Of a DNA stretch of 64,000 bases, positions 48,016 through 53,556 are shown one piece after another. The stretch's first letter is position 1. Each line of letters opens with the position of its first letter. The position numbers and the translations under genes are program-made. Below the pieces are notes generated by a model. That model ran no database searches. It saw nothing but the letters and a program-made list of their open reading frames with translations, and was not told the origin of the DNA. The stretch comes from Planotetraspora silvatica. Its GTDB lineage: Bacteria; Actinomycetota; Actinomycetes; Streptosporangiales; Streptosporangiaceae. The stretch lies in contig NZ_BOOQ01000032.1 in the NCBI RefSeq assembly GCF_016863315.1, positions 1 to 64,000 of the forward strand. Reading direction: 5' to 3'.

Positions 48016-49938
48016 CTAGCCGACGTGGACGTGTGGCCGTCGCTCGACGTCGGGCTCGGCCTGACGCAACACCTCGCGGGTCAGGGGCGGCACGTCCCCG
48101 CCACCGAAGAGGAGGTAGCGGAGCATGGCGGCGATCGGGTTGCCCTCGGTCCAGTGGAAGTAGATGTGCGGCACCTGCCCCGTGCGGTCCCTGAGGTAGA
48201 GGAGAAGCGCGGCCAGTGCGTTCGGCACGGTCGAGCTCTCGATGCGCAGGATGCGGTGGCCGTACAGCTCCTCGCCGCTGACTCGGAGCTCGGTCTCGAA
48301 CTCGGAGGCGTCCGGCACGGTCACCTCGACGAACATGATGGGCTCCGAGCTGGGCAGCCGGTGGTTCAGCCACTGCTCGCGGCGCTTGTCGGTGTACTCG
48401 CTCTGGTTGCGCTGGTGCGGCTCGTTCGCGATCAGGTGGATCTCTCCGCATGCTTCGACGACGAGCTTCTCGGCGAGCGGATCGAGATGCACCTCGGTCA
48501 CCCGCAACTCGGTGGAGCGGGTGGCGCGCGAGACGATCGACGTCACGATGATCGCGACGATGAAGAAGAACGCGATCTTCACGCCGTCCGGGCGTTCGAT
48601 CACGTTGGCCACCAGCGTGTAGGCGAGGACGACGCCGATCACCCCGAACGCGGCCACCAGCTTCGTCTGCCCGGCACGGGCGGCGGCGACGGCCACCGCG
48701 ACGGCCGCGGAGAGAATCAGCACGAGCACGCCTGTGGCGTACGCGCCGCCCTGGGCGTCGACGTCGGCGTGGAAGATGATCGTGATGGCGAAGGCGATCG
48801 CGGTGAACACCAGCACCAGGGGCCGGACGGCGCGCGTCCAGTCGGGGGCCATGCCGTACCGGGGCAGGTAACGCGGGACGAGATTGATCAGTCCCGCCAT
48901 CGCCGACGCCCCGGCGAACCACAGGATCGCGATCGTGCTGACGTCATAGAGCGTCCCGAAGTAGTTGCCCAGGTAGTCGTGGGCGAGGTAGGCGAGGGCC
49001 CGGCCGGCGGCCTTACCTCCCTCCTGGAACTCCTTCTCCGGGATCAGCACGCTCGTCGCGAAGCTGCTGAAGATCAGGAAAACACTCATGATCAGGGCGG
49101 CGACGGTCAGCATGCGCTTGGTGCCGGCGATCCGGCCCTTCAGATCGCCTTTGACCAGCGGCATCACGGCCGCACCCGTCTCGAAGCCGGACATGCCGAG
49201 CGCGAGCTTCGGCATCACCAGCAACGAGACGGCGACCATCGCGAGGGGGCTGCTGTGGTCGGTGGTCAGGACCTTCTTCCAGCTCACGACCAGGTCGGGC
49301 TGCTCCACGACGTGCACGAGGGCCGTGGCCACGACCACCGCGTTGAGCACCAGATAGACCCCGACCAGCACCACCGCGATGCCGATGGCCTCCTTGAAGC
49401 CCTTCAGGAACACCGCGCTCAGCAACGTCAGCAGGCCCAGCGTGACGAGGACCTGATGACCGTCGAACAGGTGGGGGACGAACGGATTCTCCAGGATGTG
49501 CGCCGTGGCGTCGGCGGCCGACAGGGTCATCGTGATCACGAAGTCCGTGGCCGCGAACCCGAGCAGGACCAGCACGAACAACTTGCCCCACCACTGCGGG
49601 GCCAGTCGCTCGAGCATCGCGATCGAACCCTGGCCGTACGGGCTCTCCGCCGCCACCCGCCGGTAGACCGGCAACGCCCCGAACAAGGTCAGCAACACGA
49701 GGAAGAGCGTGGCGATCGGAGACAGCGCACCCGCCGCCAGTGCGGCGATGCCCGGCTGATAGCCCAGCGTCGAGAAGTAGTCCACACCGGTCAGGCACAT
49801 CACCTGCCACCAGCGATGTTGCTCCCCCGGCGCGTCGGGACCGTGTGGCCCCACGGCCTTCAGGTCCTCCTGGTGTAGCCCATCGAGCAGCCACGTCCGC
49901 AGATCCCCCGTCACCGGGGGCCGCACTAACCCGGCCAC
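48016..49938 (-). CDS. APC-superfamily permease with cytosolic C-terminal domain
   Basis: 640 residues. About 12 membrane segments cover residues ~40-460, beginning [20 protein letters not shown] and including [20 protein letters not shown] and [20 protein letters not shown]. The C-terminal ~170 residues are a soluble domain ([20 protein letters not shown], then [12 protein letters not shown]). The layout and length match the APC branch that includes KUP/KimA-like potassium carriers as well as amino-acid permeases. Which ion or amino acid is carried cannot be said. GTG 49938 has GGGGAGG upstream. The first array of GTGATCATGCAC copies lies ~105 bases upstream of this start. Confidence 0.85.
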
Positions 49939-50043
49939 TCGGTCACCTCCCCGTCAAATGCGCATAAAGCCGAATGCACACTACTAAGGCAGATGGGGGT
50001 TCCTATCACCCCAAGGCGTCAAGAAAACGTATATATCCCCAGC

Positions 50044-50412
50044 GTGATCATGCACAGGTTCGTGAAGACCACCCCTGACCGGCCCCTTCCCTGGGCGTGA
50101 TCATGCACAGGTTCGGCAACACATCCCTCCACCTGTGGAAACACTGTGCGTGATCATGCACACCTTCTGGAGAACTGGGATTGAGCTGGCCATATGCATT
50201 TGGTGATCATGCACAAGTTCGGGCACACACGTCGCGACCTGGGCGTTCACTTTTCGTGATCATGCACGGGCAGCCTGCTGACGCGAGTGACAGCGTGCAT
50301 GATCACGATGCCCATCACAGCAGGTCAGTGGGTCATTCGCAGAATGTGCGCATGATCGCGCGCGGCATCTCCGCAGCTCAGGTGGCATATTCGCGAAGGC
50401 GTGCATGATCAC
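50044..50412. repeat. array 1 of GTGATCATGCAC repeats, exact 53-bp period with central inversion
   Basis: Five forward copies of GTGATCATGCAC start at 50044, 50097, 50150, 50203 and 50256. Three reverse copies (GTGCATGATCAC) start at 50295, 50348 (two mismatches) and 50401. The step is 53 bases every time, about five turns of DNA. Between copies a TTCGG-like element and a GACCTG-like element recur at fixed distances, so the unit is 53 bp, not 12 bp. The middle pair (50256 and 50295) can form a 12-bp stem with a 27-base loop. Confidence 0.9.
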
Positions 50413-50473
50413 GCTCGAGAGCTGGGTCCCGAGCCCCAGAACTTGGGGCCGGGACATGGGGGCGTGGGACGCC

Positions 50474-51709
50474 TTAGGCGATCTTGTCGCGGACATGGAG
50501 AGTGGCCAGGTCGGCGGCGGCTCTCCCAGACATCCAGCCTTCTCGATCGTTGACCGACATGACACCGCTCCGCGCCAGCCGAGGGAACAGCGCGGTGACG
50601 GCCTTGTCCACCGCCTGCTCCCGGGCGGCCAGCACCGGCAGAAGATCACTCCCTGTCTCGGCCACGGCCTGCCGTACCACCTCACCTGAGGCCGCGCGGA
50701 GCCGTTCGCCGATGCGCTGGGCATATGCCGCGAGGAACGACTGGCGGAACGATCGGGTGCGTGACCTGCCGGCCAGGTCACGGCGGGCACCGGCATGGAC
50801 CATCGCCGCGGTCGCCTGCACCAGCAGCGACGTGAACAACAACTCCACCGCGTCAAGATCGGGATCGAACCCGAGCACCGTGGAGAATCCGAGCTCCTTG
50901 CTCCAGATCGCGCGGCACCGGTTGGCCGAGGCCACGACATCGAGCAGGATCGCCTTGGGCTTCTCGTAAGGGGCGTCGATCCCCAACCGGCGGCCACCCG
51001 GCTCCTGCACGCCGCCGGGCTCGGCGGCGAGCATCGCGGCGTCGATGCTGTGCCTGGCCATCAGCGACTGCGCCGCCGACGTGAACGTCTCCGCCTCGGC
51101 GGGGAACTCGGTGGACTCGGCCTTCGCCAGCAACGCGCGGATACGGGCGAGGGTCCGCTCAGTGGCCGCCCGGCCAGGGACATGTACGACACGACGAGCT
51201 GTACCGGGCAGTGGGCAGAGCCGCTCCAGCCGGGGAAGCATGGTCAGCACCGACAGGACCTCGACGGCACGGGTGACCATCGCGACGCGGTCGCCCTTCT
51301 CGCGCAGGATCTCCTCGTCGGCCTCCCACCACACGCGGGCGTCGAGCGCGGAAAGCTGAGCCAGCCACCGGTCATCCACGGCTATTGCGGCATATGCCCG
51401 CATCTCCTCGGCCATCGCGTCGATGCTGAGCCGTACATGCTCGCCGCCGAACGCGCGGCGGACCTTCCGGGCGACGTCCGCGGGCTGCCAGCCGCCGTGC
51501 CACGCGGCCGTGACCGCCTGCCGCAGGCCGGAAAGCAGCGTACGGTCGACCGTACGCGCCCAGCCTGCCTGATCGGGCCGATCGGCCAGGGCCGTCACCG
51601 ACCGGCGGAACCGGGGCTCGCTCCAGTGGCGCCGAGCGCGCAGCGCGTCGGAGACGAGCCACTCGGCCAGCTTCGCCATCTCCTCGGCGGCTCCATCCAC
51701 TTCACCCAT
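50474..51709 (-). CDS. DUF2786-type protein, flanked by repeat arrays
   Basis: 411 residues. An N-terminal helical region (LAEWLVSDALRARRHWSEPR, GWQPADVARKVRRAFGGEHV) is followed by the DUF2786 signature RIRALLAKAESTEFPAEAET and FTSAAQSLMARHSIDAAMLA at ~205-245. A C-terminal domain (RCRAIWSKELGFSTVLGFDP, LFTSLLVQATAAMVHAGARR) ends the protein. DUF2786 proteins are of unknown function and occur in phages and actinomycetes. ATG 51709 has GGGGGGCC upstream. The gene is divergent from the HD-hydrolase gene; its 3' end is 62 bases from array 1. Confidence 0.8.
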   Translation of the reverse strand: MGEVDGAAEEMAKLAEWLVSDALRARRHWSEPRFRRSVTALADRPDQAGWARTVDRTLLSGLRQAVTAAWHGGWQPADVARKVRRAFGGEHVRLSIDAMAEEMRAYAAIAVDDRWLAQLSALDARVWWEADEEILREKGDRVAMVTRAVEVLSVLTMLPRLERLCPLPGTARRVVHVPGRAATERTLARIRALLAKAESTEFPAEAETFTSAAQSLMARHSIDAAMLAAEPGGVQEPGGRRLGIDAPYEKPKAILLDVVASANRCRAIWSKELGFSTVLGFDPDLDAVELLFTSLLVQATAAMVHAGARRDLAGRSRTRSFRQSFLAAYAQRIGERLRAASGEVVRQAVAETGSDLLPVLAAREQAVDKAVTALFPRLARSGVMSVNDREGWMSGRAAADLATLHVRDKIA

Positions 51710-51895
51710 TGACCGGCCCCCCTTGGACGTTCGGAGACCGCATCCTCGCAGACGCCACCGACGGTCTCGGGCAGGCGCCGCGAAGGGATAGACCATGTCC
51801 TACCAGGCGTTCTTGTCCTTTCGGGGAGGCAATCCGGCCAAACCGCGGGGCATGTTCCAGCCAGACATCGCAGGTGGGCGAAGGAGATCGCTGAC

Positions 51896-52534
51896 ATGTC
51901 GGAGACCATCGCGGGCGTCGCCGTACCCGACTCGCAACTCGCCGCCGAGGCGACCGAACTCGTCCGGGACGCGGCGACGCCCCTGATCTATCACCACTCC
52001 CGGCGTGTCTACCTCTTCGGGACGCTGCAGGGCAGACGTCTCGGGCTGTCGGCCGACGCCGAGTTGATGTACGTCGGCGCGATGTTCCACGACCTGGGGC
52101 TGACCGAGACCTACCGGCGCACCGACCAGCGGTTCGAGCTCGACGGGGCGGACGAGGCCCGCCGGTTCCTCGACTCCCACGGAGTGCCCGCTGCCGACGT
52201 CCGCAGGGTGTGGGAGGCGATCGCCCTGCACACCACGCCCGAGGTCCCGTATCGGCTGGATCCCGAGATCGCCCTGGTCACGGCGGGTGTGGAGACGGAC
52301 GTGCTCGGCATCGGCTACGGCGATCTCGACCCCGATGACGTCGCGGCGGTCATCGCCGCCCATCCGCGCCCCGACTTCAAGCGACAGATTCTGGCGGCGT
52401 TCACCGACGGGTTCAAGGATCGGCCGGCTTCGACGTTCGGCACCGTAAACGCGGACGTGCTCGAGCACTTCGTCCCAGGCTTCCGCCACATCGACTTCGT
52501 CGAAGTCATCCAGAATTCCGCCTGGCCCGAGTGA
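51896..52534 (+). CDS. HD-domain metal-dependent hydrolase (cyanamide-hydratase-like)
   Basis: 212 residues. The HD motif parts are visible: PLIYHHSRRVYLFG with the first His, AMFHDLGLTETYRRTD with the HD pair (~residues 64-65), and ALHTTPEVPYRLDPEIALVT. This is the subgroup of small HD proteins often named cyanamide hydratase-like. The substrate is unknown. ATG 51896 has GAAGGAGA upstream. Array 2 starts 19 bases after the stop codon. Confidence 0.88.
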   Translation: MSETIAGVAVPDSQLAAEATELVRDAATPLIYHHSRRVYLFGTLQGRRLGLSADAELMYVGAMFHDLGLTETYRRTDQRFELDGADEARRFLDSHGVPAADVRRVWEAIALHTTPEVPYRLDPEIALVTAGVETDVLGIGYGDLDPDDVAAVIAAHPRPDFKRQILAAFTDGFKDRPASTFGTVNADVLEHFVPGFRHIDFVEVIQNSAWPE

Positions 52535-52552
52535 CCCCTCCACCCCCCGGGC

Positions 52553-52905
52553 GTGATCATGCACACTTTCGGCGACGGGGTGTCCGACCTGCCGCTTTCT
52601 CAAGCGTGATCATGCACGCTTTCGGGCGAAGCGCTCCTGACCCGGCCTCACGGCATACGTGATCATGCACACCTTCGGGTACGGCATCGCCGACCTGGCC
52701 ATACTCCGGGCGTGATCATGCGCGGCCCCCGCACGTGCATGATCACGGAGAGGATTTCCCCAGCTCAGGGTGCCATCTTCCGATTCCGTGCATGATCACG
52801 CCGCACATCACCGCAGGTCAACCCGCACAACACCGAGCCCGTGCATGATCACGACCGAGATCGGCGCAGGTCAGACACCCCGCCACCGAACCTGTGCATG
52901 ATCAC
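52553..52905. repeat. array 2 of GTGATCATGCAC repeats, exact 53-bp period with central inversion
   Basis: Forward copies start at 52553, 52606, 52659 and 52712 (one mismatch in the last). Reverse copies start at 52735, 52788, 52841 and 52894. Spacing is again exactly 53. The inner pair (52712 and 52735) forms a stem with an 11-base loop. Each unit also holds TTCGG-like and GACCTG-like elements. The GACCTG-like element after the last copy (AGGTCA) includes the stop codon of the lipoprotein gene at 52924. The array lies between two converging genes and is built the same way as array 1. Confidence 0.9.
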
Positions 52906-52923
52906 GGCCAAGGGGGGAGGAGG

Positions 52924-53556
52924 TCAGGCGGCGCCGGGCTCTAGGGCGGCTCCGCCGCCGTACCCCTCCGCCCGGCAGACATTCTGGATCTTCGTGATGT
53001 CCACGCCCTCCCCCGGGATACTGTCGTACGTCCACCCGATCGCATTGGGATCGGAACCCGTGGCCGGCGTGATGTGCACCTTGAACCCATGCCGCTTCAG
53101 ACACGCGACCTCTTTGCGCACGTCGTCGGCGTAATGAGGGTTCGTCTTGGGACTGAACTCCGGAGGCATCAGCGGCTCCTTGTTCACACACGCCTTCCTC
53201 GCGGCCTCGTACGCCTTCACTTCCGCCTTGGTGGGCTCACCGCTCGTCTTGGTGGGCGATCCATGGTCCGTCAGGCATTCGGCGTAGGCCTTCCGGTACG
53301 CCGCCACCTCCTCCGCTGAGCTGTCCAGGCGCAACTGGGGCCGCTTGGACTCGGAAGAAGAGCCAGAAGAGGAGTCCCCCGCCGGATCGGCCTTCGCCGT
53401 ACCGGACGTGCCGGCGGGAGACTCGGTGACCAGGGACGCGACGCCGTCGTTCTGCGCGGCCACCTTGCTGTCCGAGCCACCGCACGCGGTGAGCCAGCAA
53501 CAACCGGCGAGCACCACGGCGGCGAGCCGGACGCTGCGATCAGAGAGGGAAATCAT
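52924..53556 (-). CDS. lipoprotein of unknown function, regulated with the neighbouring efflux genes
   Basis: 210 residues. The lipobox is LTAC (Cys ~25). A Ser/Gly-rich linker with poly-Ser follows, then a domain with Cys residues in AYAECLTDHGS, ARKACVNKEP, VACLKRHGF and NVCRAEGYGG, so two disulfides are likely. It resembles small secreted proteins encoded beside actinomycete MacB-type systems. The start at ATG 53556 is uncertain; ATG 53568 is an alternative. A 20-bp operator almost identical to that of the efflux operon lies just upstream. Confidence 0.75.
   Translation of the reverse strand: MISLSDRSVRLAAVVLAGCCWLTACGGSDSKVAAQNDGVASLVTESPAGTSGTAKADPAGDSSSGSSSESKRPQLRLDSSAEEVAAYRKAYAECLTDHGSPTKTSGEPTKAEVKAYEAARKACVNKEPLMPPEFSPKTNPHYADDVRKEVACLKRHGFKVHITPATGSDPNAIGWTYDSIPGEGVDITKIQNVCRAEGYGGGAALEPGAA

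Follow-up and report, generated by a model that had tools for sequence, protein, structure and literature searches.

Phased and mirrored 53-bp site arrays at gene ends in Planotetraspora look like landing platforms for a chromosome protein

Introduction

What holds a short DNA sequence at a strict 53-bp step, first in one orientation and then in the other? A 64,000-nucleotide stretch of the Planotetraspora silvatica genome (contig NZ_BOOQ01000032.1 of assembly GCF_016863315.1, positions 1 to 64,000; hereafter the window) contains two arrays of this kind, built from the 12-mer GTGATCATGCAC, with two genes between them. A first-pass annotation made from the letters alone had offered a gene cassette, a platform for a DNA-bending or partition protein, or a set of transcribed hairpins as answers. 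Among the matches listed in a search of open-licence PubMed Central papers, we found no description of such arrays. Here we report that they form a large, old intergenic family in Planotetraspora and a few related actinomycetes, and that, judged from sequence, they look like landing platforms for a chromosome protein.

Results

The 12-mer occurs 16 times between positions 50044 and 52905; 14 copies are exact, one has a single mismatch (52712) and one has two (50348). The first-pass total of 16 copies, the fixed 53-bp steps and the forward-then-reversed layout of both arrays were borne out by our motif matches, and its count of 14 copies with no more than one mismatch is corrected to 15. When up to two mismatches were allowed, the entire window held 23 matches compared with 4.7 ± 2.3 in shuffles, and none of 100 shuffles reached 23. 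Both arrays consist of a forward arm, a short centre and a reverse arm. The step within every arm is 53 bp, which is about five helical turns, and the centre steps, measured from site to site, are 39 bp in array 1 and 23 bp in array 2. The forward arm of array 1 (50044..50267, plus strand) has five sites, at 50044, 50097, 50150, 50203 and 50256, and its reverse arm (50295..50412, minus strand) has three, at 50295, 50348 and 50401. The forward arm of array 2 (52553..52723, plus strand) has sites at 52553, 52606, 52659 and 52712 and begins 18 bp past the stop codon of an HD-domain gene. Its reverse arm (52735..52905, minus strand) has four exact sites, at 52735, 52788, 52841 and 52894, and lies 18 bp past the stop codon of a minus-strand gene ending at 52924. 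Gene calls, here and throughout, came from a home-made codon-usage caller rather than a published one. The earlier statement that the half nearest each gene's 3′ end reads along that gene held for the DUF2786 and HD genes; the left half of array 1 follows no gene 3′ end, and its outer neighbour is a minus-strand gene whose 5′ end lies at a distance of 243 bp.

We then asked how often this arrangement recurs. The window's own assembly (G000, 8.66 Mb) has 203 forward and 174 reverse pairs of exact 12-mers at the 53-bp step, 377 in all, compared with 0 for a reversed-pattern control. A 628-kb contig that we read throughout (C2) has 20 arrays, 5-78 kb apart, and scaling from the exact pairs, of which 52 of 377 lie on C2, gives an estimate of about 140 arrays per genome. 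Called arms account for nearly all exact GTGATC(A/T)TGCA cores on C2 (99 of 101), and of the two remaining cores one adjoins an array; thus we did not find the dispersed repeat without fixed spacing that the first-pass annotation had considered evidence against its interpretation. A unit profile run along the plus strand of C2 separated its matches well, with 43 of the 46 places scoring above 8 also scoring above 25. On contig C26, a 12-kb region between 25 and 37 kb (loci L275 and L276) holds two mirrored arrays together with two facing arms that flank a thiolase-like gene at a distance of 1.2 kb from each other. Names of genes outside the window (typA, relA/DUF349, leuA, thiolase, 8-oxoguanine deaminase) were read from sequence and not from a search. 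Lone arms on C2 alternate between plus and minus in 9 of 10 steps. As a rule for domain boundaries, strict alternation was left as unproved: it held in 3 of 4 steps on the partly read contig C4 of P. mira (G203), and two plus arms are consecutive on contig C8 of that species.

An alignment of 162 units from the same genome identified conserved positions 1-13, TTCG at 16-19, YGACCTGC at 33-40, (A/T)CnC at 45-48 and a C at 53, with the remainder variable. The second layer of conservation that had been noticed at fixed offsets, TTCG at 16-19 and YGACCTG at 33-39, is therefore a property of units across the genome. Spacers from different arrays agree at about half of their letters (mean 0.496). 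They share the TTCG, YGACCTG and (A/T)CnC blocks, in line with the earlier description of them as semi-conserved, and a CRISPR array, with near-identical repeats and unrelated spacers, does not describe them; no cas-family match was found among six window genes scanned with Pfam, and no search aimed at cas genes was made.

The arms have an internal order. Our set comprised 197 arms, and these are not independent, since 141 came from named 8-kb loci that are possibly orthologous or overlapping. Three to five sites were present in 165 of the 197, and neighbouring arms less than 250 bp apart pointed inward, plus then minus, in 64 of 64 cases. On C2, mismatched sites were rare at the outermost position (2 of 29), more frequent in the middle (15 of 66) and most frequent at the innermost position (17 of 29), so that 27 of 29 outermost and 12 of 29 innermost sites are intact. 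In P. thailandica (G205), the innermost site retains C at position 12 in 20 of 27 cases, though 92% of 62 units of that genome carry G there. One outward-facing remnant was seen, a single reverse core beside a forward arm at C2:346753. The two arms of one array occasionally hold near-identical units, as if copied in inverted orientation; for example, comparison of G203:C2:206368-206910 with G000:C2:533105-533594 revealed that the left arm in P. mira holds inverted look-alikes of the outer units of the right arm.

We next examined where arrays sit relative to genes. Of the C2 gaps of 15-1500 bp, 9 of 72 between convergent genes contain an array, as do 10 of 239 between genes in tandem and 1 of 87 between divergent ones; in array-centred windows the corresponding counts are 37 of 115, 49 of 389 and 4 of 145. 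An outer neighbour was called for 188 of the 197 arms, and in 122 of these the gene reads into the arm. Those 122 arms start a median of 18 bp after the stop codon, and 27 supply the stop codon themselves, through the TGA of their first site. At two loci from two species (L275:15373-15542 and L277:15037-15206), the arm overlaps the 3′ end of the gene next to it, which uses the TGA of the second site as its stop. Some arms are separated by 1-5 kb and by one to five genes, which look ordinary (e.g. typA-like).

The many arms that begin just behind stop codons, together with the enrichment of arrays in convergent gaps, could be explained if each arm were a polar, factor-dependent transcription terminator that stops RNA polymerase arriving from the outer side, with mirrored arms serving convergent genes. 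Strong hairpins outside the array were found in 0 of 46 convergent array gaps compared with 28 of 97 array-free gaps of at least 60 bp. At one junction, a strong stem-loop in P. mira (-56.6 kcal/mol) stands in place of the arms that P. kaengkrachanensis (G202), G204 and Planotetraspora sp. A-T 1434 (G058) have between the same two neighbour genes. However, lone arms between tandem genes are co-directional in 18 cases and counter-directional in 14, so no transcription polarity is seen, and arrays also occur in some divergent gaps. Gap length confounds the hairpin contrast as well, because the non-array remainder of array gaps is short, and among 31 array-free convergent gaps of 15-40 bp there is none with a strong hairpin. 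With the P. mira junction as the one clear case, we rejected a general replacement of hairpins by arrays. Nor do the arrays resemble intrinsic terminators: no conserved stem was found in the units or generally between arms, and the region 49900-53100 has 1 terminator-like site compared with 0.9 in shuffles. We consider polar terminators unlikely.

The family is confined to few genomes. Exact pairs of the Planotetraspora motif were found in 6 of 345 genomes of the order, and a looser pattern, GTGATCNTGNA twice at 53 bp, in 14 of 342 genomes and 5 of 69 genera, with a control of zero in the rows shown. All five genomes of the window's genus are positive; the others belong to g30 (five), g51 (two), g24 (one) and g34 (one, weak with 2 matches). 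A phylum-wide sample of 396 genomes gave G000 as its only positive. Among the matches listed, all named records with the exact motif are Planotetraspora. A sequence-profile search (E ≤0.01) matched 83 of 337 genomes, with 7-26 matches each in the array-bearing groups; two g5 genomes had 7 matches each yet no looser-pattern pair, and the many genomes with one to three weak matches were taken for chance, without a control.

The genome-wide motif varies by lineage (GTGATCATGCAC, GTGATCATGCAG, GTGATCTTGCAG, GTGATCTTGTAG), with GACCTG and the 53-bp step retained. The motif of P. thailandica is GTGATCATGCAGAAGTTCG, and this genome has 2 exact-motif pairs compared with 650 at up to three mismatches. 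In A-T 1434, TTCC replaces TTCG, position 19 being C in 26 of 26 units. The g51 motif is GTGATCTTGCAG..CTCGCA, and g30 has GTGATCTTGTAGTTTGTCGCA at the outermost site and GTGATC(A/T)TGCA further in; within the g30 and g51 regions that we read, the site count is two or three for 28 of 29 arms, and the palindrome GTGATCTTGCAATTGCAAGATCAC forms some of the centres. G204 has fewer pairs (51 exact, 160 at up to three mismatches), and its mismatches are spread over many positions. We read the lineage-wide differences as a sequence-specific binding protein having co-evolved with its sites. A trans-acting recogniser, either changing or lost, would produce both the lineage motif shifts and the decay in G204.

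We next compared junctions that have the same two neighbour genes in both genomes. Between G000 and P. mira, 19 junctions have arrays in both and 215 have none in either, an agreement of 234 of 234. The comparison with P. kaengkrachanensis gave 13 junctions with arrays, 129 without and 1 further array in that species; with G204, 9 with, 142 without and 4 lost in G204; with P. thailandica, 4 with, 42 without and 1 extra in P. thailandica, all 4 comparable G000 array junctions bearing arrays there; and with A-T 1434, 1 with and 5 without. The 4 losses among the 13 compared array junctions in G204 are drops below two recognised sites, and two of them are single mirrored remnants. Two array loci of L084 in G000 have no arrays in P. 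mira, where a neighbour differs; at one of them, arms lie between the same two genes in P. kaengkrachanensis, G204 and A-T 1434. At the convergent junction near G000 C2:346753 and its P. mira ortholog (L242), the lone arm stands in opposite orientations with similar spacers.

Some junctions are common to several genera. Beside an 8-oxoguanine-deaminase-like gene, arrays occur in Planotetraspora, g51 and g30; g51, A-T 1434 and P. kaengkrachanensis have one at a DUF349/relA-like junction, and g51 and Planotetraspora have one behind a leuA-like gene. This sharing gave a Fisher p-value of 7e-4 on 94 genes, with orthologous loci counted repeatedly; when each junction is counted once, sharing amounts to about 3 of 6. 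By eye, three g30 genomes without pairs (G065, G078, G079) retain a recognisable innermost remnant at the 8-oxoguanine-deaminase-like junction.

Within matched units, change is slowest in the putative recognition sequence. Between G000 and P. mira (80 of 85 units matched), the per-site difference was 0.023 in the core, 0.034 in TTCG, 0.077 in YGACCTG and 0.087 at position 53, compared with 0.14-0.20 in spacer blocks (0.17-0.20 in blocks 13-15, 20-32, 45-48 and 49-52). The 11-bp core thus has 7- to 9-fold fewer differences per site than most of the spacer, a figure biased towards core conservation, because matching needs a recognisable core. The same comparison with P. kaengkrachanensis (25 of 48 units) gave 0.029 in the core, 0.050 in TTCG, 0.200 in YGACCTG, 0.120 at position 53 and 0.20-0.34 in spacer blocks. 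Fewer units could be matched in G204 (11 of 30) and P. thailandica (2 of 10), and none in A-T 1434. Both matched P. thailandica units changed in place from C to G at position 12.

Which protein might recognise the arrays? We noticed, after the motif was known and not as a prediction, that the core GTGATC(A/T)TGCA of the main lineages contains GATC(A/T)T, the hexamer bound by the nucleoid-associated protein Gbn (SCO1839) according to the portions available to us of the paper describing it (PMC9239103). Of the 1003 GATC(A/T)T hexamers on C2, 127 lie in the arrays, which make up 5.4 kb of sequence. In those passages, Gbn sites are thousands of scattered hexamers without a 53-bp phase, and for most of the genera listed, more than 90% of species are reported to have Gbn (PMC9239103), a far wider distribution than that of the arrays. 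Since the array core exceeds the hexamer in length, is phased and has a much narrower distribution than Gbn, either a Gbn-family or an unrelated protein with extra contacts would be needed. A second lead is ArgR: in the excerpts available of a study of ArgR-bound Streptomyces coelicolor fragments, one 20-nt ARG box of 44 (AB.SCO5864_0) contains the exact 12-mer (PMC5839063). ArgR is an oligomer able to use adjacent boxes; the likeness is the identity of the 12-mer, and ARG boxes in those excerpts are single or paired, with no 53-bp arrays (PMC5839063). Our estimate for a Gbn-family binder was lowered a little because the ArgR box turned up, and we regard such a binder as rather improbable and an ArgR-type binder as more so. 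The Lsr2 DNA-binding family was rejected as the trans factor, as it occurs in 26 of 26 genomes, both with and without arrays.

A role as centromere- or partition-like chromosome sites was also considered, given that centromere iterons look similar to phased arrays with many copies of one protein site. The 20 arrays on one contig, 5-78 kb apart and at gene ends, speak against this, as does the lack of arrays in most relatives, and we judge it very doubtful.

Could the arrays instead act as RNA, folding into hairpins after transcription, per unit or by pairing of both arms? In G000 and P. thailandica, folding of the units is slightly better than after column shuffling (z -1.1 to -6.7), a small gain that may come from neighbour dependence destroyed by shuffling; A-T 1434 has no folding gain. 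Outermost arm pairs from the same array are a little more alike than those from different arrays in G000 (0.586/0.548), P. kaengkrachanensis (0.607/0.514) and P. mira (0.643/0.573), and likeness reaches at least 0.7 in 4 of 23, 2 of 8 and 4 of 15 pairs, respectively. There is no clear excess in P. thailandica (0.554/0.549) or in the g30/g51 set (0.545/0.527). The collapsed remnants at two G204 junctions (L305-L314), single and mirrored, do fold into long stems. However, the highest mutual information lies between neighbouring columns, no stem is conspicuous (best combined z 2.2), and the apparent stem includes an AGGT portion that varies from lineage to lineage. The terminator-like sites of the region were no more frequent than in shuffles, as described above, and Rfam gave 0 matches at gathering score in the window. 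With no covariation among aligned units and no general complementarity between arms, the transcribed-hairpin proposal of the first-pass annotation did not hold up, and we consider it highly improbable. A REP/BIME palindromic hairpin unit likewise does not fit, as no covarying stem was found within the 53-bp units.

Non-autonomous mobile elements, with the arms as multi-site transposon ends that are empty or enclose cargo, are equally improbable. Inward-facing multi-site arms with a special outermost site and some arms 1-5 kb apart around genes would suit such elements, as would the two L084 loci without arrays in P. mira. Against this, genes between spaced arms are ordinary-looking, array state agrees at every same-neighbour junction between G000 and P. 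mira, and old junctions keep their arrays while the motif changes. At the L084 loci, the only ones inspected, we saw no target duplication. A search for the RAYT/Y1 transposase family (PF01797) came up empty for 8 of the 14 array genomes (G000, G202, G203, G204, G058, G070, G075 and G086), no other transposase family being searched for, and it had matches in 8 of 12 relatives without pairs; a RAYT link was therefore rejected, as transposase presence does not track arrays.

Finally, by Pfam match, the genes between the two window arrays encode a DUF2786 + DUF7168 protein (50474..51709, minus strand) and an HD-domain protein (51896..52534, plus strand). With 377 exact pairs in the genome, 20 arrays on one contig and ordinary genes (typA-, relA/DUF349- and leuA-like) beside arrays elsewhere, the idea of a cassette around this pair fails, and both genes are probably incidental to the arrays.

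Discussion

Taken together, we propose that the arrays are phased protein platforms acting as boundaries at the ends of transcription units, an explanation to which, as a whole, we give a probability of about 0.5. The parts differ in strength. Genome-wide recurrence, fixed phase, arm polarity, position, conservation at junctions, lineage motif differences, and slow change in the core, in TTCG and, less so, in GACCTG fit the same-face binding platform that the first-pass annotation had suggested, and that the arrays bind a protein is probable. That their job is a transcription or chromosome boundary is possible, at somewhat less than an even chance. A sequence-specific DNA-binding protein would assemble, presumably cooperatively, on each multi-site array. 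An arm would be a row of mostly three to five sites on one helix face, running from a strong outermost to a weaker innermost site, and two arms would face each other or one arm would act alone. Placed in intergenic gaps, often just behind stop codons, such platforms would most likely block read-through or anchor chromosome structure. More tentatively, the arrays may belong to a bacterial insulator system in which an architectural protein assembles directionally on phased arrays at transcription-unit ends and segments the chromosome, its site specificity having drifted by lineage with all arrays following.

Several observations weigh against this proposal. A gene does not read into 66 of the 188 arms with a called neighbour, a few arrays sit between divergent genes, and the lone tandem arms have no preferred direction. 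Arrays are not always kept, as the losses in G204 and the two L084 loci in P. mira indicate, and GACCTG is less conserved between G000 and P. kaengkrachanensis (0.20 compared with 0.29 in block 20-32; 25 of 48 units matched). No binding protein was found, the families checked against array presence being Lsr2 and the Y1 transposase. Because Gbn is so widely reported while pairs are missing from 328 of 342 genomes of the order, and 395 of the 396 in the phylum-wide sample are negative, Gbn alone cannot explain the distribution; in addition, the 12-mer is present in the published ArgR box.

Known systems resemble the arrays in part. In eukaryotic rDNA, several oriented terminator boxes stand behind the gene end, and TTF-I or Reb1 bound there blocks the polymerase. 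The arrays likewise place oriented multiple sites behind a gene end; the rDNA boxes, however, belong to one locus type, whereas here 20 arrays lie on 628 kb with no transcription polarity shown. REP/BIME sequences with RAYT, as described in the portions of the literature at hand, also have more than 100 extragenic copies per genome in both orientations and are suspected protein platforms; the arrays differ in having an asymmetric 11-12-mer in a conserved 53-bp unit, polar arms mirrored once, and reuse of the same junctions. The TAACTGA repeats of Beggiatoaceae, from the passages available, form 169 intergenic direct-repeat sets of one short sequence, patchy and with no proven binder, but these heptamers lie mostly just upstream of start codons and are neither 53-bp phased nor mirrored (PMC4679880).

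If our explanation is correct, these genomes would carry conserved, directional sites in their hundreds, for which we have found no bacterial precedent described, and the lineages would hold a natural record of a DNA-binding protein and all its sites changing together. G204, in which the sites look relaxed, and the array-free sister species would then be ready-made controls.

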